Position numbers and translations under genes: made by a program. The notes below the pieces were generated by a model. That model was given only the letters and a program-made list of their open reading frames with translations. It did no database searches and was not told the origin of the DNA. DNA of 46,518 bases from a virus: the IMG/VR virus record IMGVR_UViG_3300010883_000061, positions 1-46,518 of that record; one strand, given 5' to 3'. Shown here piece by piece: positions 11,221 through 44,833 of this stretch (positions are counted from its first letter, which is position 1; every line of letters begins with the position of its first letter).

Positions 11221-14200
11221 TTAGTCGGCGCCCGAGCCGTCTGCTCCGCCCAAGTTTCCATAACCCTTGGATTCATTTTCTTTCCCTTTTTCCGAGTTTA
11301 ACTGTCCAATTACAGCAGAAGTGACTTTCTGAACTATTGAATCTTCAAGACCTTCAAGACCGTTTATTGTTACATTAATGTTGCTAAGACCTTCAACGCC
11401 AGTTACTTCATGGGTAACAGTTCCTTTGAAGGCTGACAGCGCCTCTGTCAATGCTGCTGAACTAGTTCCAAAAGAGCTGATACTTGAAGCAAAACCTTCC
11501 GGTATACTTAACTCAACTCCAACAGAAAGGGCTTCGGAGATACTTGACCTTAATGTGTCGGCTATTCCATTAAAATTCTGCATACCGTTGGTCGCACCAG
11601 GTTGCGCTACCCCCGCTTGGTTTGGCGCCCCTAGAAGACCCTGGTTTTGACCTGGAACAATAGGTTGATTAGATAGAGAACTTTGATTTATAGCGTTTGT
11701 AAAACACGAACATATATCGCTAACTAGAGGGCTAGACCCGGCAACGCCTCCATCGTTGAACCTTTGTATATACCCTCCTTCGCTAGCCTTTAAGACAGAA
11801 TCGCTGTTATTAAGCCTGTGGAGTAATGATATATTTCTTTTTGCAGCGTCTCGATTAACCACAAACTCTCCTGGTGTCAAAACAGCCGGTACGCTGTCGT
11901 GCGAGCCGTGGCCGCCAATTTTACCTCCTTGGGCAAACGCTGCGGTAGTCGGGTCCTCGATGTCGGGGTCAGGCGGTTCCTGGGGTCGTCTTCCAGGGAA
12001 TCTTTCATCAGGCTTATTATCCGCTCTAAGTTCATTTGTGTGGTCTTTAACCTTCTTTCCCTCACCGCCTCTGGCTACATCCTCAGCTACCTGAAAATCT
12101 AAAGTTGGTCCGTAAGGAGTTGGGAATGTCCCCTCGCTTGCATCTAGTCTCTCGACTCCAGCCTGAACCCAAGGAGGAGCTATTGGCAATGGACGAAGGG
12201 GTAGGCCTTCAGCGCTTCTTTCTCTGTTTTGTATTTGAATGGTTCTTCTTTTCTCAATATATCTGTTTAATTCTTTTTTCATAAATTTTTCTTGAGCGAC
12301 TTTTCTTTTTGCTGGGTCTTTAATTCTACTAAATTTGCCCGTCATAGCCCTATCTTTGTTGGCCCATTTTTTCTTTTGGCCCTCGTCTACTTTTCCATAA
12401 ATTCCACCACCCACAGAAGGACTGCTGCTTTCTTTTTTGAGTTCTTTCTGCTCGTCCTTCTTCTTTTCCCACTGTTTCCCTGCGGCAGTATTGTCATCCA
12501 ACATTTCGTCTGTGAACACTAAGCTTTGATTCCCTTGAATCTCGCTATCGGTTGAAGACGTAACTCTAACTTTCCCGTCTTTACTTCTAATCCATGTCCT
12601 TCCTCCTGCGTCGTCTTTTTTTACATCATCACTGGTTTCGTGATAATAACCATGTCTGTCGGTTTTATTTTTTCTGTCTGTTTCGTCCTGTTTTATTTGT
12701 TCTTTCTCATGGCCCTCTCTATTTTTATGTACTGTAGATACAACCGTAAAGTTTGACGCGTTTGTGTCAGAAGCCTTGTCAGCAGTATAGAAATGATAAT
12801 TTCCAGCTTCGGGATATTTCCTTCTCAGGTTTGCTATTTTTGCTTCTCTTTCTGGGTCATCAGCAGCTATTGCATCAAACTCTGCCTTGAAACTTCCGAA
12901 ATTATCTGGCTCATCTGGGCGTCTTTTGGCGGCTCCAGAAAAAGAGGGAGTGTCACCCGAAAGCTGGTCGTCAGTTACAGGCTGGCCTATAGGATTGCCC
13001 CGCTTGTTATATCTTGTATAAGTACCTGGAATTGGTTTTCCATCTGCATCTTTTCCACCAGGCGGTTTGTACACAATATACCCACCATCTTCATCTTCCC
13101 ATACTCTATCGCCAGTCTTTTTATCTGCGCCTTCATAGTCATCAAAAGCGTCATCACTACTTCTACTATCTAAAGTTGGCTTAAACTTAGAGCCAGTCTC
13201 TTTAGCCGTCTCTTTACCCTTACCTTTTCTTTTATCTCTTTCTTTTTGCTCTTTTAGTCTAGATTTTTTAGCGTTTTGTACTTTTAATGTATGCGAATCT
13301 CTCTCGTCCTTCTTTTTCTTTCTTTTTGAATCAAAATATTTTTTGGCGGCCTCTTTTTGCTCATCGGTTCCGCTTTTTAAGAGCCCTCTTTGTTCCTCGT
13401 CTCTTAGCTTCTGTTTTTGAAAAGCCTCTTCTTGGTCGTTTACTTCCTTTTGAGGACCACCAAGAGGTCCTCTTGTTGGAGGCGGACTACCACCATAGTC
13501 TTTCGGCTTCTTGCCAGGAATAATTATTCGGTTACCTCCACCAACCTCGTCTACAGTCTCCTGGCTAGCAGGGATGTATTTTCCCACGCCGTAATCTGCT
13601 GATGCGTCAAATTCTTGCAAGTCGTAGTTACCGCTGTCATTTCTAACCCATTTCGTATCTCCCCCAGAAGCAAAATAAAGAGGCGGAGTCATTTTGTTAT
13701 TTTGTATATCTGAGGAAACAATTGGACCTCCCTTTGCAGAATAAAGTGCACCAGAATTGATGGCGTGCAGAAGTCCTCTGTTCTTTTGAGCAGACTGTCT
13801 GTTAACAACAAATTCTCCAGGAGTCAGAACCGTAAGTCTTGTATCAGTTCCTTTGCTAAGATTTCCAGCGGCTTCTCCGTGACCGGCGCTAATATATCCT
13901 CCAGAAGCTTTTTCCTCAGGTGGTTCGGTGTAATTTTTGTTGAATTTGTTTTCCAGAAATTTCTTCTCGTCTTCAGTTAGCGGTTGTGTACCATGTTCTT
14001 CCGCGTCAGCATTATATTCTTCAACGGACGATTCAAAAGTTTCTCCAAGGTTTTCTGTATCAAGATAACCCAAATCCGCACTACCAACATTCGTTCTGCC
14101 TGGTTTGTGGTTTGGATGTTTTGTTTTAAAAATGTTGTCAAACACACGGTAGGACGGAGTGAGCGCCCCTTCACTCAAAAACCGACCGGCATCTTCCTCG

Positions 14201-17200
14201 GCGGCTTTTTCTTTTTCGCTCGGCTGAAGGTTTTTTTGTATTTGCTCTGGAGTGGCGTATGAAACTTCTCCGCTAGCAGACACCCAATAGTACAGCCCCG
14301 TACCCCCTCCGGAGACCAACATACCACCCAAGAGCAGTTGATTCCGCGTCCAGCCAGTGCCTGGAATTGGTTTTCCATCTTCATCTATTTCGGGACGAAA
14401 TCTTTTCTTTGGGCGTCTTCCTGTCTTTTTTCTATTGGCGGATTTTCGCGCTGCACGCGCTGCCTCATCTGGAACCTTGTTGTTATTAACGGCGGCGGTT
14501 GCAGCAGTTTCATCGACCGCATCATTCACTGCCTCAGTCCGGACATCTATTGGGTGATTCGGGTCGTTGGCCAGCTCCATTAAAGACCTATCTGTGTCTG
14601 GCATTGCCTCATCTGCTTCTGCATAACTGCTCTCTAAATCTGGCGTTTCTTTTCTCTTTCCTTTCTTCTCCATTACTACTACGTTCCCATCGGGTCTCCT
14701 TACAAGATAATAATCATCAGGATTATGAATAAAGTTACCCTTATCATCTTTTTGCTGCAAAAAGGCACTAAATCTCTTTCGCTGTTTTGTGTCAAGCTGT
14801 GATGGGCTAATTTTGCCAGGAGTCGTATCAGGAGTTGAAGTGGTAGGAGTCGTCTCGAGGTCTACGGATGCTGCAGGGGTGTCTGATGGCGTAGTTGGTA
14901 CCTCAGGCTCCTCACTTAAATCTAGTGTGTTGTCAAGAGCATCTTGTGTTTCAGTGCCTATAGTTGAACTTGACGCGTCGGGGGCCTCTGCTTTGGGTTT
15001 GGGGTCCGTGTGTTTTAAGTGACCCTTTTCAATCCAATCATCGAGGTTGTGGCTACTAAGAACTGCGTCAGTCGCTCCGTCTCCTCCCAAGCCCCCTTGG
15101 GCTTCAAATTTTGTTTCTGCCTCCAACGCTCTTCTTTTATCCCGTATCTTTTGCCATTCCCTCAAATACTTCTGTTCTCCTGGAGTAAGCTCATTCCAAA
15201 ATCCACTAAAATTATCAAATTGTTTTTTCCAGTCGGGAGCGGTATCGTCGAGATTGTCAAATTTACTGGCAAACCTATCACCAATTCCTCCAATCGTTTT
15301 AGGATTTACTAAAGGATTAGCCTCTCTATATGCCGAAGAGATGTCTAAGCCGTTCTCCGAAATAATTCTTCCTTGTCCATTAATGACGTAGCCGTTGTCG
15401 AGCGGTATATCTGGAGCATCGGCTCCGCGATGAACACCTACCATGTCTACATGACCGAAACGGTCCATTGCCCACATGGCCACACTTTTCTGTCCGGCTA
15501 GCGTTGAGTCGCTGTCTGGATTGTAGGTTTTTGACGCGTCGCCTTTGGTATTGAGTTCCTTGAACTCTTTCTCCTGGAGGTCAACTGCCTCAAACTCACC
15601 TTGTTTACTTTTCCTGGTTTTCCGCAGCATTTCCTTATGATAAATTCCCATCATATTTTCTTCGGCATCCATCCGGTTCAGCGCTTTCATGATTTCCATT
15701 TGTTCCTTCTTAGTCATATTCTCAGAACCAGAAAGCATTGCCTCTCTTTTGGATGAGGTCCATCCTTTTGTTCCCAACTCCCCTGCCTCACTCGCGTCAT
15801 TGAAAATACGAGCTAGAGCTTGGTCTGGAGTCAAGCCTGCTGCACTCAATTCATCCATGTATTTCGCAAGACCATCTTTACCACCGTAAACTCCTTCCAT
15901 ACGGAATAACATCTCCTCTGGGTCCAAATCTGAGTGTTTGAACGCTTTTGTCAATAGGCTTGTATCGCGCTTCATAAATTGCTTTCCAAATCTGGGCGAA
16001 ACAAAATTTTTGGCTTTTCCTAAGGTGCCACTACTCTTTCTGGCGGCTTTCATAAATTCCATGGCAAAACCGCCAATGCCAAGATACTGTGGTGGAACAA
16101 CACCGCCTTTTTGCATCGGAGATAAGAGGCTAGGAGCCATTAAAAGCATGTCCATATATCCCGCTGCTCCCTCAGGGTCTATTACGTTTCCAGACCTGTC
16201 GAGATACTGTTGTTTGTATTCATCAGAAAGTGTAGAGCTAGACCCCGTCTTTCGATACTCTCGTAAAACCTCCCCCGTGCTCATAGGCTCTTCATCGGAA
16301 ATTTTGCCTGTGCCTGAAACGTCAAATGGGGTTGGAAATCCCTGTGGGTTGCCCGGACCTCCCTCGAGAGTTTGATTAGTCGTTCTAACGTTCTGTTGTC
16401 CAAGACTCAGAAAGGTGCCTTTTTCTAGTTGCGGCGCACTGCCCGTCGGGGTATCCCATTTCACGCTTCCTTCAAGGGCGCCACCCTTGAAGCTATCTCC
16501 ACCGATTGCCTGGTCAAGATTAGCAAGCGCTTCACCAGGACGCATGCTCATGCTAAGTACAGCGGAGTCTGCTTGAATTTTAGCTGTATCAGCTAACATT
16601 CTATATTGCTCTGGCTTAAGATTCATGCCTTTGTCAACAAAATCCAAAAGAAAATCTGGAAGAACATCATCTCTTTTATTCCCAGAAACTTTATTGGATA
16701 GAGCTTCATATACCTTAGATTTAAACATGTAAGAAACAGCGTCTGTTGCATCAGCCCCAAACATCATCATGTCGCCAGCGGCGCCCGTATGCGGCATGTT
16801 TTCATAAATTTTCATTATGGCTTGTGCAGCGTCTGTTTTAGAAGCCTCTTTTTGAGAAAAAGCAAAATCTGCTCCGCCGTGCTTGCTTCTGTCCGCTCTC
16901 TTGCCCGGTTTACCAATGTCGTGAGCCCCTTCTATACCGGCTCCACGAGAAACATTATTGGCGTATAACATAGCCCTCTTAAAACCCCCAGAGCGAGCCT
17001 TATGATGAATTTCTTTGTCTGTTATTTCATCCGAATGTTCTTTCAGGCTTTCTGGGGTCCCAGCTAATGCCGGACCAAAATGCATAGCTTTCATATAGTC
17101 ACCAAAATCATCTCTCATGTTATAAAGCTCGTTTGGAGGAATAGGGGCTCCAGGAAGCCCCGTTCCCAGAGTCCCTTCAAGAATATCTATAGCATTCATC

Positions 17201-20200
17201 ATGTTCCGAATCTGGTCAACTCGATTCTTTTCAATCGACCTGGTCCGGGCTCCCTGCTCGTCCTCAAACGTTACATCCTCAGAATCAGGGGTAGTTGGCC
17301 CAAGCAACGAACTTGTGACCTTCTGCAGCGTCGTCCAAGCCGAAGGCGACGTAACTGATTGTGAGCCCACTTCAGGAGCTGCGTTACGAAACCTTTTTTC
17401 GTCGGGTATTTGGGCTGGGTAACGTTCTTTCGTGTATCCGGGTTTTCCGATGGCCCTCTTATACGAACTCCCAGGCCCGCCATCAGCCAAATATTCAATT
17501 AGACCGCCAGTTCCAGCGTATCTAATTCCGCTATTGATTTGTTGAAGAACGTCTGCGTTCTCTTTTGCAGATTTTGCGTTGACAACAAATTCGCCAGGAG
17601 TTAAAACTGTTAGTCTGGTATCTGTTCCCTTGGTTAATGGGCCAGCGGCAGAACCTGTGTGGTGTCCAACATTACCGCCTCGAGCCAACCCCCCCACCGG
17701 GTCGGTTGTGTTTTTATTTGCTGCATCATTCTTAGATGCGTCAACCCTATCTTTATAGTCAGCCTTCATTCTGTCGAATCTTGCTTTCATTTCTCTGAAA
17801 TGGGTCGACATGGTTTCAACGTTAGCCCTTGCTTCTGCAGCGGCTTCCGAGGCTTCTCGTGCTTGTATAACAAGTTCATCAAACGCAACTCCACCAGTTA
17901 AGTCTATGTCGCTCAAAGTGGATTCAAGTAAAGACTGGTTATCTATAAATTTCTCAAGTTGTTCTACGCTTATCCCAAGTGTATCAGCCAATGAAGTTAG
18001 CTGTTCGTTGTATTCTCTAGTGGAGTCATTAAGCTTTTCTACTAAACGTTCAGTCGCTGCAATTTGCGGTTTTACAAATTCATCATTTAAGATTCTATCC
18101 GCATCACCCGGACCAGCATCCGGACCTAGCTGATTAATTCCGGTAAAGCTATCTACTAACCTATCTACTGCCGCGAGCCACTGCGTTCGCTGGTCATCTG
18201 TCATGTCGTCGCCGCCATAAAGGTCCTTTGTTTCACCTTGGAAAAACCCCCTAAGGTCCTGCATCCTGCCTTCGTCTTTAAGGGTTTCCCTACTAAACCC
18301 TGCACCCGTCGCCCCTCGCATCATGCCCTTACCGAAAGCCAATGTGCTATCACTATCACTAAACTGGGCGGCAAGCTCATCAGTATTGGCCCGACTTTCT
18401 TTTAAGTCTCTAAGACTCTGTATGTTTGACACATTTGCTTTAAGTGTTCTGGCTTCATCTTGGTCATCAATTCCCAGGAGACCCAATCTTTTGGAAGCGT
18501 CAACTTTTTGCTGCGCCTTAATCGCGTCATCATCAAGCATAGACAAATTACCTTTGGCTCTAGCAACATTAGCTTCCTCTAAAGCCATGACAATTGCACT
18601 AGTCCCAATTTCTACAGCTTGAGCAACCATTTCTGTAGCAGTAACAAGCTGGTCTCTTACTATGTTTCTAAGCTGAACTGTAGCATCAAACGCTTTTTTA
18701 GCCAGTTCTTTTCTAGCTTTTTCAGCTTCTGCTTCAGCCTTACTCTTTTCAAGAATAGAGTCAATCAGCTTATTTCTTTCGGCGGGGTCAGCTACTCCAG
18801 CTCTGGCAAACATTTGTGTTAGCTGGCCCCTCATTGCTCCTTCATAAATTTCTTTTGGGGTCTTTCCTCCAAGCATAGACATGGACTCATCGCCAGCTCC
18901 AGAGTTAATGAGGCCCTTTAATTGTTGTAGAGTCTGGCCTCTTACATCTTCACTCATTTGCTGTGGAAGCATTCCTTGAGATAAAGCCATCATTCCAACA
19001 ATGCCTTGAACAAATCTCTTCTGGTCGTCTTTGCCTCCAAACACAACACTTTCTGCCTGAGATAGTTTGTATTGTCTCGCTGAACGAGCTCTGGCCAACT
19101 CCTGCTCAACCATGGCCAAGGCTTCTGAAGCGTTTGCTGCAGATTCCAAACCAGCTCTGAGGCGAGCAGCCTTGTCATTTAAGTTCGCTAGCTGGTCTTG
19201 ATTCTTTAAAAGCTCTTCAGAATTAGCAGCGGAGGCATCTATTTCTTTTCTTTTAGCGTCTATTAAAGCGTTTGTTTCCCTAAGCTCTTTAGCCATTTGA
19301 GCAGGGTCTCCGGCAAAACGAGACATATCGACATCGGTCCCTGCCCCTAAAGCAACTCTTTGACCTCTGTTGTAAGAACCTCTAGCGCTTCCTAAAGAAG
19401 GAGGAGTGGCTCCCCAGAATCCTCTCGTCTCCCTGTCCTCTTTGCGGAATTTAAATGTCCTTGTCCTGGCCTGCTCCATGTTCGCGTTTCTTCTAACAAG
19501 CTCTTCTCTTATCTGGGTTCTAGCTTGAAGCATTCTTCCAAGCTTATCTTGCGTTTGTATAATGGTTTCTCCAACCTTTTCAAGAGCCTCAACCAAAGCT
19601 TTTTGACCTTTTGACAGTAAGTCTTGAACAAAAGCTACGGGGTCGTCTTTTATTTTTCCTATAACTTTTCCTTCGCCTCCCTCTTTTTCTTGGCTAACAA
19701 AAGCCTGAACGCCAGCAACAATACCAGACGCAAGAGAGCTTGAACCAAAACGGTCGTTCATAAGTCTTTTAAGTTCAATAACAAGCTGATTTCCAGAAGC
19801 GGCGGATGCTTTAACCGCTTGCGATAGAACCTCTGGAAGTTCTTTGGTTATGTTCAGTAAAGCTGAAGCCTCTTCTCTGATGCCATCATTTGGAGATAGC
19901 TTTTTGAGTGTTGACGCTAAAAGGTCTGGGTCAACATTTTCTCCTTGCATAGCTCTAGTTAATACCCCTGACTTCATCGAAGGTCCGCCAAATCTTGTTT
20001 CAACTCTTCCTCCTAAAGCGATGGCTAAAGTCGCAGCCATTTCGTGCTCAAACTCACCAATAGCATCTGTTGCCCTAGAAATTGCATCAATGAAAGTTTG
20101 AATTTCTGAAGTCCATTGTCGAGAAGCTCTTTCAGATTCCAAACTCTCTTCTTGGGCCTTTCTTAGCTTCGCAGCCATGATAGCGGATTTTTCAAATTCT

Positions 20201-23200
20201 TGCCTAACCTCATCAATAGGAATCTGAGATATTCTAGATATAACCTCTATTAACTGTTCTCCCACGCCTCCTCTAGAACTAGATAGCTGGTCTATCGCTT
20301 CCCCCTCGGTTGTTGCTGTCATCTCTCCAATAAATTGGGTTAGAATTCCTCGTAATGCTGGAAGCTGTCTTTGCGCTTCTGCTTGAAATTGAGACCTGTT
20401 TTCGGGGGCTCCAAAGCGAGCATTTTTAAACAGTTTACTTCCAATTTCTACAGTTCTAAATAGTGAGGCTGAGGTTATCCCTCCTTTTTCTATATTTCTT
20501 AATGTTTCATTCATGTCGGACAGGATAGACACTTGTTTACCCTGCTCTAAAGCCGCTATGATGGGGGCAAAATCAATTGGGCCTCCACCTCCCATGTAAC
20601 CCGCTCCTCCGCCAATAGCGGAACCAAGACCTGCACCAATCATAGTTCCAATACCAGGAGCTATTACTGTTCCTATTGCTCCGCCAACAACAGCTCCTAT
20701 AGCGCCTCCCTTGGCTACAGACACCCCCTGTTGTTTTTGTCTTTGCCCAGCAACATAATCATCCATAGACTTTTGTCTATCGGTATCTGTTTTTGCTGAA
20801 GCAGCTAATTGAAGCGCTGTTTTCGAAGCTTGCTCTCCAAGACCTCTTAAAGATAATCCAACAGCAGCACTAGCAGAGGCCATCATTGCTATTGGTCCAA
20901 CAGCTTGTCCTAAGCCCTTAGTGAATCTTCCAAGAGCATACTGACCCTTTCCTCCAATTGTAGTCATTCTGGAGCCAGCCATCAATCGACCACCCCCACC
21001 CTTCAACATTCCCCCTAAATTCAAACTGTCTAGTGTCATTTTTAGCATGACGAAGCTACTAACGAGAGTTGTGGCAACAGAGGTAAACTTGCTTAAAGAT
21101 TTGTTGGATTCGCCCAATTGAGAATTGAATGTTTCAAGCGCAAACATAGCGGCAAACATGCCTCCGCCAGCCATTGCCATTCCACCAGCGGCAAACTTTT
21201 GAACGCCGCCAGATTTTTTAACTGCACCACCCTTAGCAAAGCCTTGAATTTTTCCTTTGTTCAAAGACTGAAGTTTGTTATATCCAACTGTTTGGGCTGT
21301 TTTTTTGTTGACTACAAATTCGCCTGGAGTAAGAAGTGCGGGGACAGTATCGCTTCCAGATATGCCTCCTCCTGAAGCTCGTCTCACCCAATTAAGCCTA
21401 CCCCTGTGTGTGGCTGGAGAGTGTTTTAAACCCAATCTGTTGGCAGCTGGCTTTAAGGTGCCATCCTTGTTCATCAACGCGGCGTCTATCTCTGCGGAAG
21501 AAGCTTTGTTAGGAAGACCGAGAGCCGCTCTAATCAGATTGTCGTCTCCCGCCACCCTGCTTCCGGGCTTCCTTCCTCTCATTTTCTGACCAGTAAGGTT
21601 TTTTCTTAGTTTTTCTGCGTAATACGCTGTTGCCTTTTTAGTAAGACTTGTTATTGAATCCTCTGAGAAAGTTCTTTTTGCGTCTGTAGGCGCTCTTCTC
21701 ATTTTAGATGGAAAGCCAAACGTTCCGCCAAGATTCGAGCCTAGCCCAGCAGGGAAATCGAATGTAGCGTTACCTTTTATCCTTTGGTCGTTGAACCTAT
21801 TGTCAGAAACAGCTCCTAAAGCCGCCTCAAATATATTGCCTTCAGTCTGTGTGGGATTTGCTAGTTTATATGATTTTTTAAATCTACTGTCGTTGAATCT
21901 AAGGCCAGGTAACTCAGTTTTAGACCAAGATTTAGCTGCTTCTTGTATCTTAGATTGCATAGAACTAGAAAACTTTTCGGAACTCTCATCGCTCAAGCTT
22001 CCAGAATATAAATCAACCGCAAAGTTTTTACCTCGACTAGCCCCTCCTCGCAATCTGGCTCCTTTTATAGCCGTGTCACTAAACGAGGTTTTTCTTCTAG
22101 TTCCCCCCTCAGTATAATTTGCCTTTTTCATTACATCCTTGAAAGGTATATTGATTCTCAGATGCCGAGCAAGTCCTTGGGGTCTTAAGAAAGCTCCAGC
22201 GATAGATTTTTCAGTGCCACTTCCAAAATACTCGCCTTCCTTTCCAAACTGTCCCTTAACAGCGGTAGCTGAGCCAAGCTTGAAGTTGGCCTCAGGGCCA
22301 TCTATAAAATCGGCAAAACCGCCCTCAGTAAATTTCTGTCTCTCGCTTCTTTTTATTTGTCCGCCCGAAGCTTTCCTTGCCCGAATTGCTTTGACGTTTG
22401 GAATCTTCGAAGCAGCCATTACGTTTACGTTGTCGTCGTCTAAGAAAAATACTTTTTCATATCTAGGAGAAATTTTTTGTCTAATAGCTGCTTGCTTAGC
22501 AAGGGAGGTTCCACCCATAGATTTGCTATAGTTACCAACGCCAATAACCTCTTTGGCTGGAGCCCCTACCCCTCGCATGAAGTGACCTATACTACTTTTT
22601 GTAGACTTATCTCCTGGCCTGGCAGTTAGAACGTAAATATCATGCCCTCTTTGGGCTCTTCTTCTTGCCATTGAAGCATACTTCGTTGCTCTGGCGCCTC
22701 TTATAAATTTGCCCCCTCGACTTCCACGGAAATCTTCAAAAGGGTCTTCAGCTCCTTCACGAACAACTGCATCGCTTTCAGCCAAGGTGTCATCAAAGTC
22801 AAACACAAAAGCCTTCTTAGCTCCTCCGCTCATTCTTTTTCCAAATCTTTTGGAACGACTTTGAGCGTACATAGCCCCCTTTGCTCCGCCACCAAGCCTT
22901 CTTCTTCGTGAAACGTCTCCAGCTTTTACGGTACCACCTACATTTAATCTTTGAAGATTGCTTGCACCATATTTTTCAACCGAGCTTTTTCTAATAACAA
23001 ACTCTCCAGGCGAAAGCATTGCCGGAACAGTATCTCCGCTACCTACTCCAGGAACAACTCCTCCAGACGCGAATCTTCGTCGTTTTTTTCCAGACGAGAC
23101 TCCAGGGTTAACACCACCAATAAACCCTTTAGAGCTGGCAGATAATCTGACCATAGAAACGCTTAAAGATTGAATTGCAGAGGTCAACCTTGAAACAGCA

Positions 23201-24861
23201 TTGGTGTTGTTGTTTAATACTCCGGCGTGTCGGTTTGCAACTGAAGCGGCGGTACTACCATTTTTTTGAATAATCCCTGAAAGATTTTTTAGAACGCTTG
23301 TGTTTGCGACCTGAGCTTGAGATTGTTTTTGAGTAGATTGAGTTAACTGTGAAGTGCTAGCTGTTTGTTTTTGCTGAGACGCAATCTGATGGGAAGTAGC
23401 TTGCACGTTTCCTGCCCCGCCAGTCATTCCTCCAACAAAGCCTTTTGTAAACTTTAAGCCCATTCGAATTCCCTGGAAAGCGGCTAGGCCTGCCATAAGG
23501 GGAAGAACGGGTTTAAGAGCTTCAGCAACTTTTACAAAACTGCTGGCCATAGTCAAACCGACGGCGGCAAAATTCTTAAATGCGCTGCTACCTGTTACAT
23601 CCCTCATAAAAGCCAAGAATTGTTCTCGAACTTTGGATATCTGCACGGCGAGAGTTTGCTGTGCTGTTGCTGCGTCTTTTGCTAAGGAGTCTTGACCTCT
23701 CATAGCTACCCTAAGGGCTTTTTGTGCTGTTCCAAACTGTTGAATCAATGGAATAACTTTAGACACTTGACGAAAACCACCAAGCTCTTCAATTATCTGT
23801 TGGAATCTTGGGTCAGTAGATTCCAGAGTTTTAAGTGCTTTACTTAATCTTTTTATTGCCTCAAAAGGACCAACAAAATTTCCAGCAAGATTTTGTAATT
23901 CAACTCCTGACTGCCTAAGAAACTCGATTGTTTTAGGTCTTTGAATTCTTGTAAAGATAGTCCTAAAACCAGTAGCAATAGTTTCAGCGCTTTCACGAGT
24001 TGTACTTCGAACGCTAGTGAACAAGGCCAGCAATTCTTCTAGCTGTCCACCAGCAGCCTTGAAAGCTCCACCGGCTCTTCGAATTGCAAAAATCATGTCC
24101 TGAGATTCTACCGCAAACTGACCGGCTAAAGCATTAATAGAACCAATCTTTTTTCCAACTTGGTCCGCAGTAACGTTAAACTGACGCATAACAGCAATAG
24201 CGCCTTCTGCGGTGTTTGTCATGTCTTTAAATGTCGGAGCCAAAGAACTTTGGGCAATGGACTTTAAAGCAGACGTAACTTCTCTAGCGCTCAAACCTGT
24301 TTGAGATAAAGTTCTTGCAACTGTAACCAATTCTGAAGACGCAACACCCAGGCTTGTAGATAGGCCGGTTATTTCTCTTTGCAAAGCCCCTAAGTTGCCA
24401 AGACCTCTTCCTGTAACCTGAGCGACTTTAACAAGCTCTCTTTCAAAATCAATAGCTGCAGCAGTACCCCTTTTCAGGGAGGTTACAAACCCACCTAAGA
24501 TTCCAGCGCCTATGGTAAATGCGGCAAATCTTTTTACAGCCAAGGCAGACTTTTGACCAAAATCCTCTACAGCGTTTGTGGCCTGCTGTATGGTCTTATT
24601 GGTTTGTGCCATAGCAGTGGAGGACTTTTGTGACTGCTGGCTTAGAGCTCCTAGATTTTTATTTGCTGTTGACGCTTTGGAAGATAAGTTTTGAAGGCTC
24701 TGTGCAGTTTGCTGTGCAGTTCTGAGAGCCTTCTGACTTACATTGACATTAACGTTAGCGTTTACGCCAGAAAGCTGTCTTTGCAGATTTCTAACTATGT
24801 GACTTACATTTCTCGGGCCCTGCAAATTAAGCTGGGCAACTATGTTGAATCTTTGCGCCAT
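11221..24861 (-). CDS. Giant composite tail tape measure protein
   Basis: The 4546-residue protein is encoded by one uninterrupted frame covering 29 % of the window. Residues 1-480 form a classical tape measure core: an N-terminal coiled segment, a hydrophobic stretch near 110-130, a conserved block (RELVKVAQVTGRGLGNLG, then EITGLSTSLGVASSELVTVA, then GAFKAAGGQLEELLALF), and a second hydrophobic stretch near 450-480. After that come a HAD-like domain (678-827), a PDDEXK-like region (1000-1090), hydrophobic helices (1227-1343), a glycine zipper (1381-1424), long charged helices (1450-2390), an HD-like domain (2600-2720), one more hydrophobic segment (3506-3528), and a highly charged disordered region (3700-4310). 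Five TPGEFVVN-type modules divide these parts. Tape measure identity is secure from the core and from its place after tube and chaperone-like genes. Enzyme roles of the inserts are inference. Confidence 0.9.
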   Translation of the reverse strand: MAQRFNIVAQLNLQGPRNVSHIVRNLQRQLSGVNANVNVNVSQKALRTAQQTAQSLQNLSSKASTANKNLGALSQQSQKSSTAMAQTNKTIQQATNAVEDFGQKSALAVKRFAAFTIGAGILGGFVTSLKRGTAAAIDFERELVKVAQVTGRGLGNLGALQREITGLSTSLGVASSELVTVARTLSQTGLSAREVTSALKSIAQSSLAPTFKDMTNTAEGAIAVMRQFNVTADQVGKKIGSINALAGQFAVESQDMIFAIRRAGGAFKAAGGQLEELLALFTSVRSTTRESAETIATGFRTIFTRIQRPKTIEFLRQSGVELQNLAGNFVGPFEAIKRLSKALKTLESTDPRFQQIIEELGGFRQVSKVIPLIQQFGTAQKALRVAMRGQDSLAKDAATAQQTLAVQISKVREQFLAFMRDVTGSSAFKNFAAVGLTMASSFVKVAEALKPVLPLMAGLAAFQGIRMGLKFTKGFVGGMTGGAGNVQATSHQIASQQKQTASTSQLTQSTQKQSQAQVANTSVLKNLSGIIQKNGSTAASVANRHAGVLNNNTNAVSRLTSAIQSLSVSMVRLSASSKGFIGGVNPGVSSGKKRRRFASGGVVPGVGSGDTVPAMLSPGEFVIRKSSVEKYGASNLQRLNVGGTVKAGDVSRRRRLGGGAKGAMYAQSRSKRFGKRMSGGAKKAFVFDFDDTLAESDAVVREGAEDPFEDFRGSRGGKFIRGARATKYASMARRRAQRGHDIYVLTARPGDKSTKSSIGHFMRGVGAPAKEVIGVGNYSKSMGGTSLAKQAAIRQKISPRYEKVFFLDDDNVNVMAASKIPNVKAIRARKASGGQIKRSERQKFTEGGFADFIDGPEANFKLGSATAVKGQFGKEGEYFGSGTEKSIAGAFLRPQGLARHLRINIPFKDVMKKANYTEGGTRRKTSFSDTAIKGARLRGGASRGKNFAVDLYSGSLSDESSEKFSSSMQSKIQEAAKSWSKTELPGLRFNDSRFKKSYKLANPTQTEGNIFEAALGAVSDNRFNDQRIKGNATFDFPAGLGSNLGGTFGFPSKMRRAPTDAKRTFSEDSITSLTKKATAYYAEKLRKNLTGQKMRGRKPGSRVAGDDNLIRAALGLPNKASSAEIDAALMNKDGTLKPAANRLGLKHSPATHRGRLNWVRRASGGGISGSDTVPALLTPGEFVVNKKTAQTVGYNKLQSLNKGKIQGFAKGGAVKKSGGVQKFAAGGMAMAGGGMFAAMFALETFNSQLGESNKSLSKFTSVATTLVSSFVMLKMTLDSLNLGGMLKGGGGRLMAGSRMTTIGGKGQYALGRFTKGLGQAVGPIAMMASASAAVGLSLRGLGEQASKTALQLAASAKTDTDRQKSMDDYVAGQRQKQQGVSVAKGGAIGAVVGGAIGTVIAPGIGTMIGAGLGSAIGGGAGYMGGGGPIDFAPIIAALEQGKQVSILSDMNETLRNIEKGGITSASLFRTVEIGSKLFKNARFGAPENRSQFQAEAQRQLPALRGILTQFIGEMTATTEGEAIDQLSSSRGGVGEQLIEVISRISQIPIDEVRQEFEKSAIMAAKLRKAQEESLESERASRQWTSEIQTFIDAISRATDAIGEFEHEMAATLAIALGGRVETRFGGPSMKSGVLTRAMQGENVDPDLLASTLKKLSPNDGIREEASALLNITKELPEVLSQAVKASAASGNQLVIELKRLMNDRFGSSSLASGIVAGVQAFVSQEKEGGEGKVIGKIKDDPVAFVQDLLSKGQKALVEALEKVGETIIQTQDKLGRMLQARTQIREELVRRNANMEQARTRTFKFRKEDRETRGFWGATPPSLGSARGSYNRGQRVALGAGTDVDMSRFAGDPAQMAKELRETNALIDAKRKEIDASAANSEELLKNQDQLANLNDKAARLRAGLESAANASEALAMVEQELARARSARQYKLSQAESVVFGGKDDQKRFVQGIVGMMALSQGMLPQQMSEDVRGQTLQQLKGLINSGAGDESMSMLGGKTPKEIYEGAMRGQLTQMFARAGVADPAERNKLIDSILEKSKAEAEAEKARKELAKKAFDATVQLRNIVRDQLVTATEMVAQAVEIGTSAIVMALEEANVARAKGNLSMLDDDAIKAQQKVDASKRLGLLGIDDQDEARTLKANVSNIQSLRDLKESRANTDELAAQFSDSDSTLAFGKGMMRGATGAGFSRETLKDEGRMQDLRGFFQGETKDLYGGDDMTDDQRTQWLAAVDRLVDSFTGINQLGPDAGPGDADRILNDEFVKPQIAATERLVEKLNDSTREYNEQLTSLADTLGISVEQLEKFIDNQSLLESTLSDIDLTGGVAFDELVIQAREASEAAAEARANVETMSTHFREMKARFDRMKADYKDRVDASKNDAANKNTTDPVGGLARGGNVGHHTGSAAGPLTKGTDTRLTVLTPGEFVVNAKSAKENADVLQQINSGIRYAGTGGLIEYLADGGPGSSYKRAIGKPGYTKERYPAQIPDEKRFRNAAPEVGSQSVTSPSAWTTLQKVTSSLLGPTTPDSEDVTFEDEQGARTRSIEKNRVDQIRNMMNAIDILEGTLGTGLPGAPIPPNELYNMRDDFGDYMKAMHFGPALAGTPESLKEHSDEITDKEIHHKARSGGFKRAMLYANNVSRGAGIEGAHDIGKPGKRADRSKHGGADFAFSQKEASKTDAAQAIMKIYENMPHTGAAGDMMMFGADATDAVSYMFKSKVYEALSNKVSGNKRDDVLPDFLLDFVDKGMNLKPEQYRMLADTAKIQADSAVLSMSMRPGEALANLDQAIGGDSFKGGALEGSVKWDTPTGSAPQLEKGTFLSLGQQNVRTTNQTLEGGPGNPQGFPTPFDVSGTGKISDEEPMSTGEVLREYRKTGSSSTLSDEYKQQYLDRSGNVIDPEGAAGYMDMLLMAPSLLSPMQKGGVVPPQYLGIGGFAMEFMKAARKSSGTLGKAKNFVSPRFGKQFMKRDTSLLTKAFKHSDLDPEEMLFRMEGVYGGKDGLAKYMDELSAAGLTPDQALARIFNDASEAGELGTKGWTSSKREAMLSGSENMTKKEQMEIMKALNRMDAEENMMGIYHKEMLRKTRKSKQGEFEAVDLQEKEFKELNTKGDASKTYNPDSDSTLAGQKSVAMWAMDRFGHVDMVGVHRGADAPDIPLDNGYVINGQGRIISENGLDISSAYREANPLVNPKTIGGIGDRFASKFDNLDDTAPDWKKQFDNFSGFWNELTPGEQKYLREWQKIRDKRRALEAETKFEAQGGLGGDGATDAVLSSHNLDDWIEKGHLKHTDPKPKAEAPDASSSTIGTETQDALDNTLDLSEEPEVPTTPSDTPAASVDLETTPTTSTPDTTPGKISPSQLDTKQRKRFSAFLQQKDDKGNFIHNPDDYYLVRRPDGNVVVMEKKGKRKETPDLESSYAEADEAMPDTDRSLMELANDPNHPIDVRTEAVNDAVDETAATAAVNNNKVPDEAARAARKSANRKKTGRRPKKRFRPEIDEDGKPIPGTGWTRNQLLLGGMLVSGGGTGLYYWVSASGEVSYATPEQIQKNLQPSEKEKAAEEDAGRFLSEGALTPSYRVFDNIFKTKHPNHKPGRTNVGSADLGYLDTENLGETFESSVEEYNADAEEHGTQPLTEDEKKFLENKFNKNYTEPPEEKASGGYISAGHGEAAGNLSKGTDTRLTVLTPGEFVVNRQSAQKNRGLLHAINSGALYSAKGGPIVSSDIQNNKMTPPLYFASGGDTKWVRNDSGNYDLQEFDASADYGVGKYIPASQETVDEVGGGNRIIIPGKKPKDYGGSPPPTRGPLGGPQKEVNDQEEAFQKQKLRDEEQRGLLKSGTDEQKEAAKKYFDSKRKKKKDERDSHTLKVQNAKKSRLKEQKERDKRKGKGKETAKETGSKFKPTLDSRSSDDAFDDYEGADKKTGDRVWEDEDGGYIVYKPPGGKDADGKPIPGTYTRYNKRGNPIGQPVTDDQLSGDTPSFSGAAKRRPDEPDNFGSFKAEFDAIAADDPEREAKIANLRRKYPEAGNYHFYTADKASDTNASNFTVVSTVHKNREGHEKEQIKQDETDRKNKTDRHGYYHETSDDVKKDDAGGRTWIRSKDGKVRVTSSTDSEIQGNQSLVFTDEMLDDNTAAGKQWEKKKDEQKELKKESSSPSVGGGIYGKVDEGQKKKWANKDRAMTGKFSRIKDPAKRKVAQEKFMKKELNRYIEKRRTIQIQNRERSAEGLPLRPLPIAPPWVQAGVERLDASEGTFPTPYGPTLDFQVAEDVARGGEGKKVKDHTNELRADNKPDERFPGRRPQEPPDPDIEDPTTAAFAQGGKIGGHGSHDSVPAVLTPGEFVVNRDAAKRNISLLHRLNNSDSVLKASEGGYIQRFNDGGVAGSSPLVSDICSCFTNAINQSSLSNQPIVPGQNQGLLGAPNQAGVAQPGATNGMQNFNGIADTLRSSISEALSVGVELSIPEGFASSISSFGTSSAALTEALSAFKGTVTHEVTGVEGLSNINVTINGLEGLEDSIVQKVTSAVIGQLNSEKGKENESKGYGNLGGADGSGAD
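11851..11905 (-). repeat. TPGEFVVN module 5 in tape measure
   Basis: Residues about 4319-4338 read HDSVPAVLTPGEFVVNRDAA, preceded by a GG-rich stretch and followed by a Leu/Asn-ending helix (LLHRLNNSD). It is the last of five copies in this protein. Confidence 0.85.
13793..13856 (-). repeat. TPGEFVVN module 4 in tape measure
   Basis: Residues about 3669-3690 contain KGTDTRLTVLTPGEFVVNRQ followed by LLHAINSG. It is closest to module 3, with which it shares the unusual TDTRLTV instead of DTVPA, so these two probably arose by duplication. Confidence 0.85.
16700..17065 (-). other. HD-phosphohydrolase-like domain inside tape measure
   Basis: Residues about 2600-2720. The segment EIHHKARSGGFKRAMLYANN gives an early His and the helix typical of HD domains. 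It is followed by GAGIEGAHDIGKPGKR, a textbook HD motif, and then by KHGGADFAFS, matching the second conserved His-Gly-rich stretch. A later Asp (ADATDAVSY) could be the last metal ligand. HD proteins hydrolyse phosphoester bonds in nucleotides or nucleic acids. The assignment is by motif only, but the motif order is complete. Confidence 0.6.
17571..17632 (-). repeat. TPGEFVVN module 3 in tape measure
   Basis: Residues about 2410-2430 contain KGTDTRLTVLTPGEFVVNAK, then VLQQINSG, directly before the segment holding the HD-like domain. Confidence 0.85.
20589..20721 (-). other. Glycine-zipper hydrophobic segment in tape measure
   Basis: Residues about 1381-1424 are a run of GxxxG/GGxxG with Ala, Val and Ile (GAIGAVVGGAIGTVIAPGIG and onward). 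Such glycine zippers insert in membranes. In tape measure proteins, hydrophobic segments of this kind are linked to passage through the host inner membrane during DNA ejection. Confidence 0.7.
21301..21360 (-). repeat. TPGEFVVN module 2 in tape measure
   Basis: Residues about 1168-1188 read SGSDTVPALLTPGEFVVNKK and continue to LQSLNKG. It closes the segment with the HAD-like and PDDEXK-like regions. Confidence 0.85.
21590..21865 (-). other. Possible PDDEXK-type nuclease region inside tape measure
   Basis: Residues about 1000-1090. A helix with GNIFEAALGAV (candidate first Glu) is followed by the strand ATFDFPAGL (motif II Asp) and, about 25 residues on, APTDAKRTF (a D-x-K form of the E-x-K motif), then a helix SITSLTKKATAYYAEKL. 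Order and spacing fit the alpha-beta-beta-beta-alpha core of PDDEXK nucleases. This is a motif reading only; the fold needs structure prediction. Confidence 0.4.
22380..22830 (-). other. HAD-superfamily phosphatase-like domain inside tape measure
   Basis: Residues about 678-827. All HAD motifs can be seen: motif I KAFVFDFDDTLAES (DxDxT form), motif II IYVLTARPG, a candidate motif III Lys in SLAKQAAIRQKI, and motif IV KVFFLDDDNVNV. HAD enzymes hydrolyse phosphate esters through an aspartyl-phosphate intermediate; small phage members dephosphorylate nucleotides or DNA 3' ends. The catalytic residues appear intact, so the domain may be active. The substrate is unknown. Confidence 0.75.
22987..23041 (-). 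repeat. TPGEFVVN module 1 in tape measure
   Basis: Residues about 608-625 read SGDTVPAMLSPGEFVIRK, followed by NLQRLNVGG. It is the first copy and marks the end of the classical tape measure core. Confidence 0.85.
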
Positions 24862-41269: not shown

Positions 41270-43321
41270 TTAAGTCCTTCTTACGCCCATACCATATATT
41301 CCGTTCATCTTTTCTATTAAATGTTCTGGTCCTGTATATAATGACGACCCTTTATTTTTTCTTTCTTGGCTAGCATATCCGCCGACAAACGTATGTTCTT
41401 GGCCTTGTAGCTGGTTTTGTATAGAGTGAGAAACTTCGTTTGCCATCAATAAAGCTGAATACCTGTCTTTTCTAAGTCTGCCCTTTTTTCCTCCGGGCTC
41501 TACTGTTTGTGGGGTGTCCCACTTATCCCTGCCAGATGTTGTTTGCGTATGGTCTATTGTCGCAAGCTCATCTTTTAGAGACTCTATCTCCATAACGCAG
41601 TCTTCCATAGTGTCATAATGCCTGTTGGCTAACTTATCGTCTGTTATTGCTTCAGATAGCAGGATAGTATCAAATTTAGGGAATAGTAATGAACTAGTTT
41701 CCATGTCTTTTCTTAGGTTGTGGTTTGCTTTAAAAGTAAACTCAGATTTTGCAAATTGTATCATGTGTAGTATGTGCAAACCAGCTTCGCCATCTGTTGG
41801 CTTATTCTTTGATTCCCAATAGAACGGGTCTTTGTCATCATATTTTATATATGGCCATATTGCAATTTCTTTTTCTTTGATGGTATTTGCATCATGGAGG
41901 GCTTCCATTATGGCTATACCTCCTCCTTGTGCATCTATAGCTATATGCTCTGTGGGAAAAATTTTCATTAAGTCTAGTATTTTTCTTGCGCAATAGTTAT
42001 AGAAGCTTTCTAGCTGAGATTCTTTTCTTGTCTTTATTCGCTCTCTCATCGCTTGTCGACTACAGGTCCAGCAATATACAACCCTTCTGTGCATTTCATT
42101 TTGCTCCAGAACAACGATTGAAAAATTATCTGTTTCTGATGCTGGGTCTATGCCATAGATATACCTTTTATTTGGGTCTCCGAAAATGCAAGCGTCAAAA
42201 GCTACTTCGTCTCCGGAAGGAGTTCTTACGGGGTCGTTGGTTACGCATCTCTCCACTAAGCTTCTTCTGTAAAACCCTTCGGAGTCTTTCGCAAAGCATG
42301 CTTCATATTCCATTTCGTATCTAGATTTATTAAGCATAGCTTTAGCTTGTGCCATTTGAGATTTATCCATAAATCCTTCTGGAAGAAGCGACTCGGGTAT
42401 TCTCATTAAAGAATAATGATTCCAGTCAAAACCGTCCGGTATTGTTCCTTTAAAAACATTTTGCTCTAAAAATTTTTTGTCTCCTTTACTACGCACAATC
42501 TCCCTCTGTCTGACAAAATATTCGTAAAAGTGATTAAATGCGTAGTAAGCTGTTCCAGCTATAATTGTCTGGTTTCCAAAGCCAAGCTCCGCCTCTATTT
42601 CTTGGGCTTCTGCGTACATTCCAAGCTCTTTTAACTTTTGTATCTGCGCGTATTCTTTTACTTTGTCTGCTGGATTTGCCGAAACAGCGCCAAAACCCTT
42701 AATAACAACTTCGAATATTTCTTGTGGAATTGATGCAAATTCGTCTGCTATGATATAATTCGCTCTTAATCCACGAATCTTAGAGCCGTCGCCAAGAGGT
42801 ATAGCTATGATTTCGCTTTGACCAACATAAAACGTACATCTGTCAATATCTCTTTTTGGACCCTGTCCTCTAGATGAACCAACTATGTTTCGAAATATTG
42901 GAGAGTTCTTATAGAAAGTTTCCATATATTCAAAAAGGAGTTTAGATTGACGAAAGGCTGCGCCGATAACTATAATCTTGCTTCCTTGCATAAAGAAAGC
43001 TCTAAGTAAAGAATATAGCGCTAGAATCCATGTCTTGCCACCACCACGAGTTGCTATAAGCATTGGAAATTTTCTGTTCCAAAGTTCTCGTAATATGCAC
43101 AACTGAAAAGGCAAAAGGTCTACATTCAAAAGGTATTTACAGGTAAACCAAAAATTTTCCGGTTTACGCATGTAATCTAAAAACTCAATCATTGGATTGT
43201 CGTAATCTTGTTGTGGATTAATTAGATAATTTTTAACCGATATATTATCTACGTCACCTATGTTAAGGTGCGCGTGCTTTAATAGGCTTTCCACATGCTC
43301 TTTATTATTTTTTGTTGTCAT
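41270..43321 (-). CDS. terL: Terminase large subunit
   Basis: The protein has about 683 residues from ATG 43321 (MTTKNNKEHV), which overlaps the nuclease gene by 17 bases; an ATG 66 bases upstream is less likely. Walker A is ATRGGGKTW (about 88-96), Walker B is YIIADEFA (about 186-193). The nuclease domain has GIDPASETDNFSIVV (about 389), AIDAQGGG (about 460) and KKGRLRKDRYSALLMAN (about 611-627) with the acidic metal ligands. It is the ATPase-nuclease motor that packages DNA through the portal encoded next. All motifs appear intact. Confidence 0.93.
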   Translation of the reverse strand: MTTKNNKEHVESLLKHAHLNIGDVDNISVKNYLINPQQDYDNPMIEFLDYMRKPENFWFTCKYLLNVDLLPFQLCILRELWNRKFPMLIATRGGGKTWILALYSLLRAFFMQGSKIIVIGAAFRQSKLLFEYMETFYKNSPIFRNIVGSSRGQGPKRDIDRCTFYVGQSEIIAIPLGDGSKIRGLRANYIIADEFASIPQEIFEVVIKGFGAVSANPADKVKEYAQIQKLKELGMYAEAQEIEAELGFGNQTIIAGTAYYAFNHFYEYFVRQREIVRSKGDKKFLEQNVFKGTIPDGFDWNHYSLMRIPESLLPEGFMDKSQMAQAKAMLNKSRYEMEYEACFAKDSEGFYRRSLVERCVTNDPVRTPSGDEVAFDACIFGDPNKRYIYGIDPASETDNFSIVVLEQNEMHRRVVYCWTCSRQAMRERIKTRKESQLESFYNYCARKILDLMKIFPTEHIAIDAQGGGIAIMEALHDANTIKEKEIAIWPYIKYDDKDPFYWESKNKPTDGEAGLHILHMIQFAKSEFTFKANHNLRKDMETSSLLFPKFDTILLSEAITDDKLANRHYDTMEDCVMEIESLKDELATIDHTQTTSGRDKWDTPQTVEPGGKKGRLRKDRYSALLMANEVSHSIQNQLQGQEHTFVGGYASQERKNKGSSLYTGPEHLIEKMNGIYGMGVRRT

Positions 43322-43793
43322 ATTTATTTTGAACTTCCATAAATCTTTTAAATATACTAGAACAAACCTCTTTTGCATATTCACCACAAAAAAGAAATGG
43401 AACGTCGTATTTCTTTTGCAGCTCCAGTATTCTTTTCAAAAAAAACGGACCTCTTACTTTCATGTATTTTCTTTTATGGGCTGGTATTTTACTTCCTTTT
43501 GGGAACTCAACAACATCTTTCATGTTAAATTCTAATAAAACATATCTCCAAGGAAATTCTATCATTCTTTCAAGTTCTCTTTCAAATCTAGGCTGCGTTA
43601 TATTCGTAGCTAACTCTGAGACGTTTCCTTTTCTTTCTATGCATATATGGCTTTCGTATCCATATAACGTATAGTCTCCAGTCTTTATTGTCTGCTCTTC
43701 TGTTCCCGCACAGTATCCAGATTGACTGAACTCCCATCCGTCTTTTTCTCTGGTGTCTCTATAGACTAAATAAGGGTCGTATCCTTTTTGCAT
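43305..43793 (-). CDS. ERCC4-domain nuclease
   Basis: The protein has 162 residues. The N-terminal DTREKDGWEF, then IKTGDYTLYG, then ICIERKGNVSELATNI and RFERELERM reproduce the ERCC4/XPF nuclease signature (D-x-R-E, GDY, ERK). These enzymes cut branched DNA such as flaps, forks or Holliday junctions. Overlap with the dehydratase gene upstream (28 bases) and with the large terminase downstream (17 bases) puts it in the packaging operon, so trimming of branched concatemers before packaging, like T4 gp49, is a reasonable inference. Confidence 0.85.
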   Translation of the reverse strand: MQKGYDPYLVYRDTREKDGWEFSQSGYCAGTEEQTIKTGDYTLYGYESHICIERKGNVSELATNITQPRFERELERMIEFPWRYVLLEFNMKDVVEFPKGSKIPAHKRKYMKVRGPFFLKRILELQKKYDVPFLFCGEYAKEVCSSIFKRFMEVQNKYDNKK

Positions 43794-44833
43794 TCTATTT
43801 TCTTTTCGTCTTGGGTCACCATTCTTTTTACCATCTCGTTAAATGATGTTTCTGGTGACCATGATATTTCAGACTTAGCCTTATTATAGTCTCCGTGTAA
43901 AAACTCTACTTCCGCTGGTCGATAAAATTCTGGGTCAACAACAACAAGGTTTTCCCACTGTTTTATGCCAATAAAATCAAACGCAATCCTTATGAAGTCT
44001 CTGACAGTTCTGCTTGTTCCAGTAGCTATTACATAGTCTTCAGCTTGGTCCTGCTGCAACATCATCCACATGGCTTTAACGTAGTCTGGAGCATACCCCC
44101 AATCTCTAGCCGCATCTAGGTTTCCAAGTCGCAGCTTAGGGAATGTCTCTTCTGGATTCATTACAGATATTATGTTGTCTGGGTCAGAAACGGCGTCGAA
44201 AGGCTTGTTTTCACCGTTAATCCATCCTTTGAACTCGGCAACCCATTTTGTAATCTTCCTGCTGACAAACTTCTCTCCTCTTCTTTCGCTTTCGTGATTA
44301 AACAGGATTCCGCTGCAAGCGTACATGCCATATGCCTCTCTGTATATTCTAGTTTTATGGTGAGCTGCAAGTTTTGCGATAGCGTATGGAGATTGAGGTA
44401 CAAAAGGTGTGGACTCCCTTTGATATCCGTCTATGTCAACAGAGCTTCCAAACATTTCGGATGTGCTTGCTTGATAAAATTTGGCGTGAAAACAATATCT
44501 TCTTACAGACTCAAGTATGTTGAGAGGCCCTTCCGCGTCCACCTTCCAGGTATGTTGGGGCTCATTAAAAGAAGTCGCAACATGTGATTGGGCTGCTAAA
44601 TTATACACTTCGTCTGATTGATTGTCATTAATAACCGAAGAAACACTGATAAAATCAGTTACGTCGCCTTCGACTAGACTAAAGTCTGGATTAGACAATA
44701 AGTGGCTGAGCCTTTCTGTGTTGTTGGTGCTCGACCGTCGATTAACTCCTACAACCTTGTATCCTTTTTCTAGAAGAAGCTCTGTCAAATAAGAGCCATC
44801 CTGTCCTGTAACTCCAAAAATTATAGCTTTCAT
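43766..44833 (-). CDS. gmd: GDP-mannose 4,6-dehydratase
   Basis: The 355-residue protein converts GDP-mannose to GDP-4-keto-6-deoxymannose, the first step to GDP-fucose, GDP-rhamnose and related sugars. It has the Rossmann motif GVTGQDGSYL (7-16), NRRSS for NADP binding, NLAAQSHVATSF, QASTSEMFG, the catalytic pair in SPYAIAKLAA, the family signature GMYACSGILFNHESERRGEKFV, and LGNLDAARDWGYAPDYVKAM. Compared with usual members there is an insertion of about 25 residues between RKITKWVAEF and LRLGNLDA. The start overlaps the upstream gene as ATGA. It lies inside the packaging operon rather than with sugar genes. Confidence 0.93.
   Translation of the reverse strand: MKAIIFGVTGQDGSYLTELLLEKGYKVVGVNRRSSTNNTERLSHLLSNPDFSLVEGDVTDFISVSSVINDNQSDEVYNLAAQSHVATSFNEPQHTWKVDAEGPLNILESVRRYCFHAKFYQASTSEMFGSSVDIDGYQRESTPFVPQSPYAIAKLAAHHKTRIYREAYGMYACSGILFNHESERRGEKFVSRKITKWVAEFKGWINGENKPFDAVSDPDNIISVMNPEETFPKLRLGNLDAARDWGYAPDYVKAMWMMLQQDQAEDYVIATGTSRTVRDFIRIAFDFIGIKQWENLVVVDPEFYRPAEVEFLHGDYNKAKSEISWSPETSFNEMVKRMVTQDEKKIECKKDTTLI

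Follow-up and report, generated by a model that had tools for sequence, protein, structure and literature searches.

What are enzyme-like domains doing inside the tape measure protein (TMP) of a phage, and could they act in the cell that the phage infects? TMPs occupy the tail tube and participate in DNA entry, and those bearing peptidoglycan hydrolases, such as YomI of SP-beta and the TMPs of mycobacterial and Gordonia phages, are well known. The question arose from the longest ORF of the window, by which we mean the whole 46,518-nucleotide stretch of DNA analysed here, a linear virus record of 46.5 kb. An earlier note had described this ORF as one TMP chain containing a HAD-like phosphatase, a PDDEXK-like nuclease, and an HD-like phosphohydrolase. 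The coordinates and length that it gave (11221–24861, 4546 aa) were both exact. The frame is uninterrupted, starts with ATG, and lies on the minus strand, as do all features located below; the first base of residue r is at 24861-3(r-1). The tape measure identity was borne out by a PhageMin_Tail domain at residues 163–362 (23776..24375; Pfam PF10145, E 4.5e-25, 89.1 bits against a Pfam cut-off of 33.2), the sole Pfam family found in the full-length protein, and by matches to several PHROG TMP families. The ORFs adjoining the TMP resemble, by eye, tail and head genes, and a terminase-like ORF follows. Elsewhere in the window, a GDP-mannose 4,6-dehydratase gene (43766–44833, minus strand; Pfam E 1.4e-113) adjoins the phage packaging genes, and an ORF with an ERCC4 (XPF-type) nuclease domain (43305–43793, minus strand; 26.9 bits against a Pfam cut-off of 24) overlaps the listed start of the terminase-like ORF. 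The enzyme domains lie physically within the TMP-related protein, in one continuous ORF, and the close relatives L016/L018 and L019 share the HAD domain at the same position. An assembly artefact was rejected as the source of the TMP-enzyme fusion, the ORF being unbroken and the same HAD occurring on three other contigs.

Five copies of a hinge motif of the LTPGEFV type ("DTVPAxLTPGEFVVN"), all recognized by a hinge HMM, partition the window TMP: hinge 1 at residues 597–648 (22918..23073, 72 bits; GDTVPAMLSPGEFVIRKSSVEKYG), hinge 2 at residues 1161–1212 (21226..21381, 74 bits; SGSDTVPALLTPGEFVVNKKTAQ), hinge 3 at residues 2404–2453 (17503..17652), hinge 4 at residues 3663–3712 (13726..13875), and hinge 5 at residues 4309–4363 (11773..11937). 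The region between hinges 1 and 2 (residues 649–1160), which we call slot 1, contains the HAD domain followed by the nuclease-like module. A scan with the hinge alignment returned at least 600 stretches, at least 572 of which were confirmed; the best 80, in large TMP-like ORFs, were retained, so that the TMP sample used below is skewed to hinges like those of the window and includes some near-duplicates. Frames exceeding that of the window (5886–6544 aa) were seen among the hinge-bearing TMPs, in the records G010, G013, and G035 behind L028, L033, and L077. The hinge motif is widespread in isolate phages, where it was found in hundreds, for instance in Gordonia TMPs and in a tail-region gene of a cyanophage. 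In the TMP of Gordonia phage BoyNamedSue (L104), hinge-like motifs flank, by eye, peptidoglycan-hydrolase-like segments, and the inter-hinge slot may thus be an older feature that is used for cell-wall enzymes elsewhere.

The HAD domain spans residues 680–833 (22363..22824) and is of the polynucleotide 3'-phosphatase type. The full-length TMP gave a weak PHROG match to polynucleotide kinase over residues 678–823, and the isolated segment matched phrog_415, polynucleotide kinase, with an E of 5.9e-6; the Pfam family HAD_PNKP reached an E of 0.072 on this region, under the family cut-off. The HAD motifs are intact (DFDDT688–692 with D688, D690, and T692; T746; and DD808–809) and are kept in homologs: motif I (DxDxT), motif II (TAR or SAR), and motif IV (DD) are invariant across the TMP-borne and free-standing relatives, and a K is present in the motif III region. 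An AlphaFold2 model built from a 72-row alignment had a pLDDT >90 over most of the domain, with strands and helices as expected for the fold. A Foldseek search of the PDB with this model placed T4 polynucleotide kinase at ranks 1–3 (1ltq, E 2.7e-6; 5uj0, E 3.4e-6 and TM 0.67 by target; and 2ia5) and Pnkp1/Rnl/Hen1 at rank 4, the HAD matches having a probability of 1.00, and named viral polynucleotide kinases and phosphatases were among the best matches in the BFVD. Fold and sequence together confirmed the claimed HAD-like phosphatase and assigned it to the polynucleotide 3'-phosphatase type, which is also its predicted activity. T4 Pnkp (1ltq/5uj0), the best structural and PHROG match, shares the HAD fold and motifs but is a separate protein in which the phosphatase is fused to a P-loop kinase, whereas the window HAD forms part of a structural protein, the window TMP, which showed no kinase. 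In some relatives of this TMP, P-loop segments occupy slot 1.

A scan of viral contigs with the HAD sequence found 15 loci with free-standing ORFs of ~165–210 aa, showing 27–34% identity and possessing the HAD motifs. In a tree of these domains, the TMP-borne copies fell into at least two groups, one uniting the window with L016, L019, and L089 (96/95) and the other uniting L071, L099, L030, and L032 (100/98), although some branches were long. Among the close TMP relatives, L017 and L020 lack the domain. Comparison of the L016 and L019 copies (dN 0.16, dS 0.81; dN/dS ~0.2) indicates that the HAD domain is under purifying selection.

The second occupant of slot 1 is a nuclease-like module at residues ~885–1085 (21607..22209; 71.6 bits with the family HMM), the core of which (residues 995–1082, 21616–21879) contains the conserved residues G1008xxFE1012, FD1035FP, and D1060AK1062. 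Counterparts of the segment G1008NIFEA...FD1035FP...D1060AK1062 were recognized by eye in the five close TMPs L016–L020. The HMM, seeded with 26 sequences picked by a regular expression for E/D/(D/E)xK and then iterated, matched 63 of the 83 hinge-bearing TMPs sampled, mostly at 40–74 bits, compared with 7.8 bits for the best single domain in the reversed-sequence control. Over 65 module copies, which share roughly 20% identity, the active-site-like E, D, and D/E are each present in 65/65 and the K in 57/65, with T at the K position in the remaining eight; the reasoning from this invariance is in part circular for the 26 seeds, which the expression itself had chosen, whereas the other copies were recruited without it. 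The module resembles PDDEXK nucleases in its E...D...(D/E)xK residues, the GxxFE helix, and the spacings of 23 and 25 residues, but differs from them in having no sequence match to the Pfam or PDB PDDEXK families. Sequence-profile searches of the PDB gave no significant match, the Pfam search of the module alignment gave no family matching more than one member, and a profile-profile comparison with a second PDDEXK-like group was not significant. AlphaFold2 modelled the D and DxK positions with a pLDDT of ~90, although the strands at D1035 and D1060 were only of bridge length, and the PDDEXK fold is therefore not demonstrated. A tblastn search of isolate phages with one member as the query found no copy of the module, nor did the module occur as a stand-alone ORF among the loci examined, and no YqaJ nuclease was found in 37 sister records. 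Residue pattern and spacing fit a PDDEXK nuclease, the fold being unproven, and the earlier proposal of a nuclease held as far as the conserved residues, their recurrence, and the scores far above the reversed controls.

The third claimed domain fared differently. Its basis is an isolated HDIGK motif at residues 2647–2651 (16909..16923), which occurs once in the window TMP, with histidines upstream. It is the sole such motif in 83 TMPs (199,507 residues), absent from the other 82, and shuffling yielded such an HD motif in 0.8% of the cases for residues 2431–3660 and in 2% for the whole TMP, placing it within the reach of chance. The region had no match in Pfam or the PDB and no relatives in viral contigs, GTDB contigs, isolate phages, or 50 sister records, and its single-sequence structure model had a pLDDT of 36. 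An HD phosphohydrolase is accordingly unsupported by these comparisons rather than excluded. Two of the kinds of check that the earlier note proposed, structure prediction and a search of related phages, separated the three domains: the HAD was supported by both, the nuclease-like module recurred in other phages with its fold undemonstrated, and the HD region gained support from neither.

The position of the modules within the TMPs follows a strict rule. When the hinge HMM was applied to 5'-complete ORFs, 63/63 nuclease-like modules and 18/18 HAD modules had exactly one hinge upstream, that is, all of them lay between hinges 1 and 2, where random placement would be expected to put 23%. The slot content varies between close relatives. 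By motif, slot 1 of other TMPs contains six P-loop, five HIGH-type nucleotidyltransferase-like, and three ADP-ribosyltransferase-like segments, together with five GYGPxLYD segments (GNAT-like, by eye) and two further PDDEXK-like segments. Of the ADP-ribosyltransferase-like segments, those of L071 and L060 exceed the Pfam curated cut-off; Pfam support for the nucleotidyltransferase-like assignment lies below its cut-off (E 0.00072), and motifs are the basis of the P-loop and GNAT-like assignments. Six of the 13 TMPs without the GxxFE module possess a differently built E..D..(D/E)xK segment in slot 1, compared with 1.1–1.6 expected from windows of equal length elsewhere in the same TMPs, for a pattern picked after viewing the sequences. 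These assignments predict that slot 1 holds enzymes in the TMPs of dozens of related phages. In slot 1 of L071 (ORF residues ~690–2316), a second-type PDDEXK-like segment comes first, followed in turn by a nuclease-like module, the ADP-ribosyltransferase that exceeds the Pfam cut-off, one P-loop and one HIGH-type nucleotidyltransferase-like segment, a HAD, and, last, another copy of the nuclease-like module. Slot 1 of L043 and L064 contains segments (AHDGDSWNVIY..GYDAYE and VLDGDTFDAEV..GYDAYE, respectively) resembling staphylococcal nuclease by eye; neither had Pfam support, and that of L064 also had no support from the PDB.

Enzyme domains inside a TMP are shared with the peptidoglycan-hydrolase TMPs, and the Gordonia TMPs among these share the hinge motif as well; the cargo of those proteins attacks the cell wall, whereas that of the window slot appears to be directed at nucleic acids. 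The closest precedent found for a nuclease-bearing TMP is Tme, a tape-measure-related effector of the contractile injection system of Streptomyces davawensis, whose C-terminal EndA-like domain has endonuclease activity (PMC11126660). Tme resembles the slot-bearing TMPs in being a TMP-related protein with a nuclease or nuclease-like domain, which in Tme is an active cargo of a tail-like particle. It differs in belonging to a bacterial injection system, in bearing a single C-terminal nuclease of the EndA-like type (DRGH / H-N-N), and in its phenotypes in the producer (PMC11126660), whereas the proteins described here are phage proteins with an internal, hinge-bounded slot and enzymes of other folds. 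The idea of a TMP-borne nucleic-acid enzyme therefore has a precedent (PMC11126660). In the open-access literature we found no description of a PNKP-type phosphatase or of the nuclease-like module in TMPs, which is weak evidence of absence given that only this literature was covered.

The occurrence of a HAD domain and a nuclease-like module together in slot 1, and their recurrence in other phages, makes a role of TMP-borne enzymes on nucleic acids plausible. We propose that the hinge-bounded slot delivers putative nucleic-acid enzymes to the host as the DNA enters, and consider this somewhat better than an even bet (a probability of about 55%). The enzymes would be synthesized within the TMP, carried in the tail, and extruded with the TMP at DNA ejection, presumably in an active form, and would then work on nucleic acid at the host membrane or immediately inside it, ahead of any phage gene expression. 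The module, predicted to be a metal-dependent nuclease, may trim ends or cleave nucleic acid of the host, of a competitor, or related to defence, while the HAD phosphatase would convert 3'-phosphate ends into 3'-OH, so that the two could act jointly on nucleic-acid ends. The target may be nucleic acid of the host, the product of a defence (cleaved tRNA, for instance), or the DNA ends of the phage itself. TMPs are thought to precede the phage DNA into the host, and the slot enzymes may therefore be the first tools of the phage in the cell. A folded domain in the tail tube is a known difficulty, and against our proposal it must be said that a folded enzyme does not obviously fit there; the domain may instead be extruded unfolded or may sit at the tail tip. 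In phage lambda infection, the TMP was found beside the inner-membrane proteins ManYZ during genome injection (PMC13190303); together with the participation of TMPs in entry, this suggests that TMP-borne enzymes could reach the host at that step.

The awkwardness of a folded enzyme in the tube favors a different account, in which tail assembly removes the slot and its enzymes work inside the cell that makes the phage, on host nucleic acid or on DNA in packaging, rather than in the next host. The repeated hinge motifs flanking the slot could be cleavage sites, and processing is known for some TMPs, as with gpH of lambda, which provides a precedent. Neither a processing site nor a phage protease was identified, however, and ordinary TMPs commonly have the hinge too, as does the cyanophage tail-region gene; we consider excision quite unlikely. 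Another account, which we regard simply as unlikely, holds that the inserts have degenerated or play a structural part, as enzyme folds of old that serve without catalysis as spacers or as membrane or DNA contacts. The replacement of K by T in eight module copies would agree with it, as would one HAD-like group (GAVDxDRTL type) without motif IV. It accords poorly with the catalytic motifs of the window HAD, with the dN/dS of this domain, and with the retention of E, D, and D/E in every module copy despite such low identity.

That the nuclease modules are selfish, homing-type endonucleases, which carry a stretch of the TMP gene from phage to phage and play no part in infection, would explain why the nuclease-like module lies within a conserved gene and why the slot content differs among close relatives. 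This seems very unlikely to us: no empty allele was found among the slots read, the phosphatase, nucleotidyltransferase, and ADP-ribosyltransferase in the same slot would be left unexplained, and no intein splicing motifs were apparent at the hinges by eye. On the same observation, an intein origin of the slot itself was rejected. The full model of the earlier note, in which HAD, PDDEXK, and HD enzymes act against nucleotide defence signals, is supported by the presence of the first two modules, and we find it highly improbable, since the HD component has neither a profile, a homolog, nor structural support and the nearest match of the HAD is a polynucleotide phosphatase. The resemblance to polynucleotide 3'-phosphatases makes nucleic-acid ends a likelier target than nucleotide signals, so that of the proposed action on nucleotides or nucleic acids, the latter part is the one favored.

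The earlier observation is thus partly confirmed, and it broadens: the giant TMPs of one family have a payload slot whose position is fixed and which is bounded by hinges. Taking entry of the slot enzymes into the host as the preferred reading, we tentatively extend it, at slightly less than even odds, to the view that in a large phage family this slot is an interchangeable payload bay, injected with the genome as a virion-borne first-strike or end-repair kit akin to the effectors of contractile injection systems. Its cargo would comprise domains of the nuclease, polynucleotide phosphatase, kinase, nucleotidyltransferase, ADP-ribosyltransferase, and acetyltransferase kinds. Because the payload has a fixed position, such enzymes are easily spotted in new genomes and can be tested singly. 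If the slot is a site of delivery, TMPs would be a widespread source, little noticed to date, of proteins that arrive in the host ahead of any phage gene expression. The slot enzymes would then arrive at the stage at which SNIPE and other entry-targeting defences operate (PMC13190303), and phage tails would be linked to the contractile injection systems, for which a TMP-related nuclease effector is known (PMC11126660).
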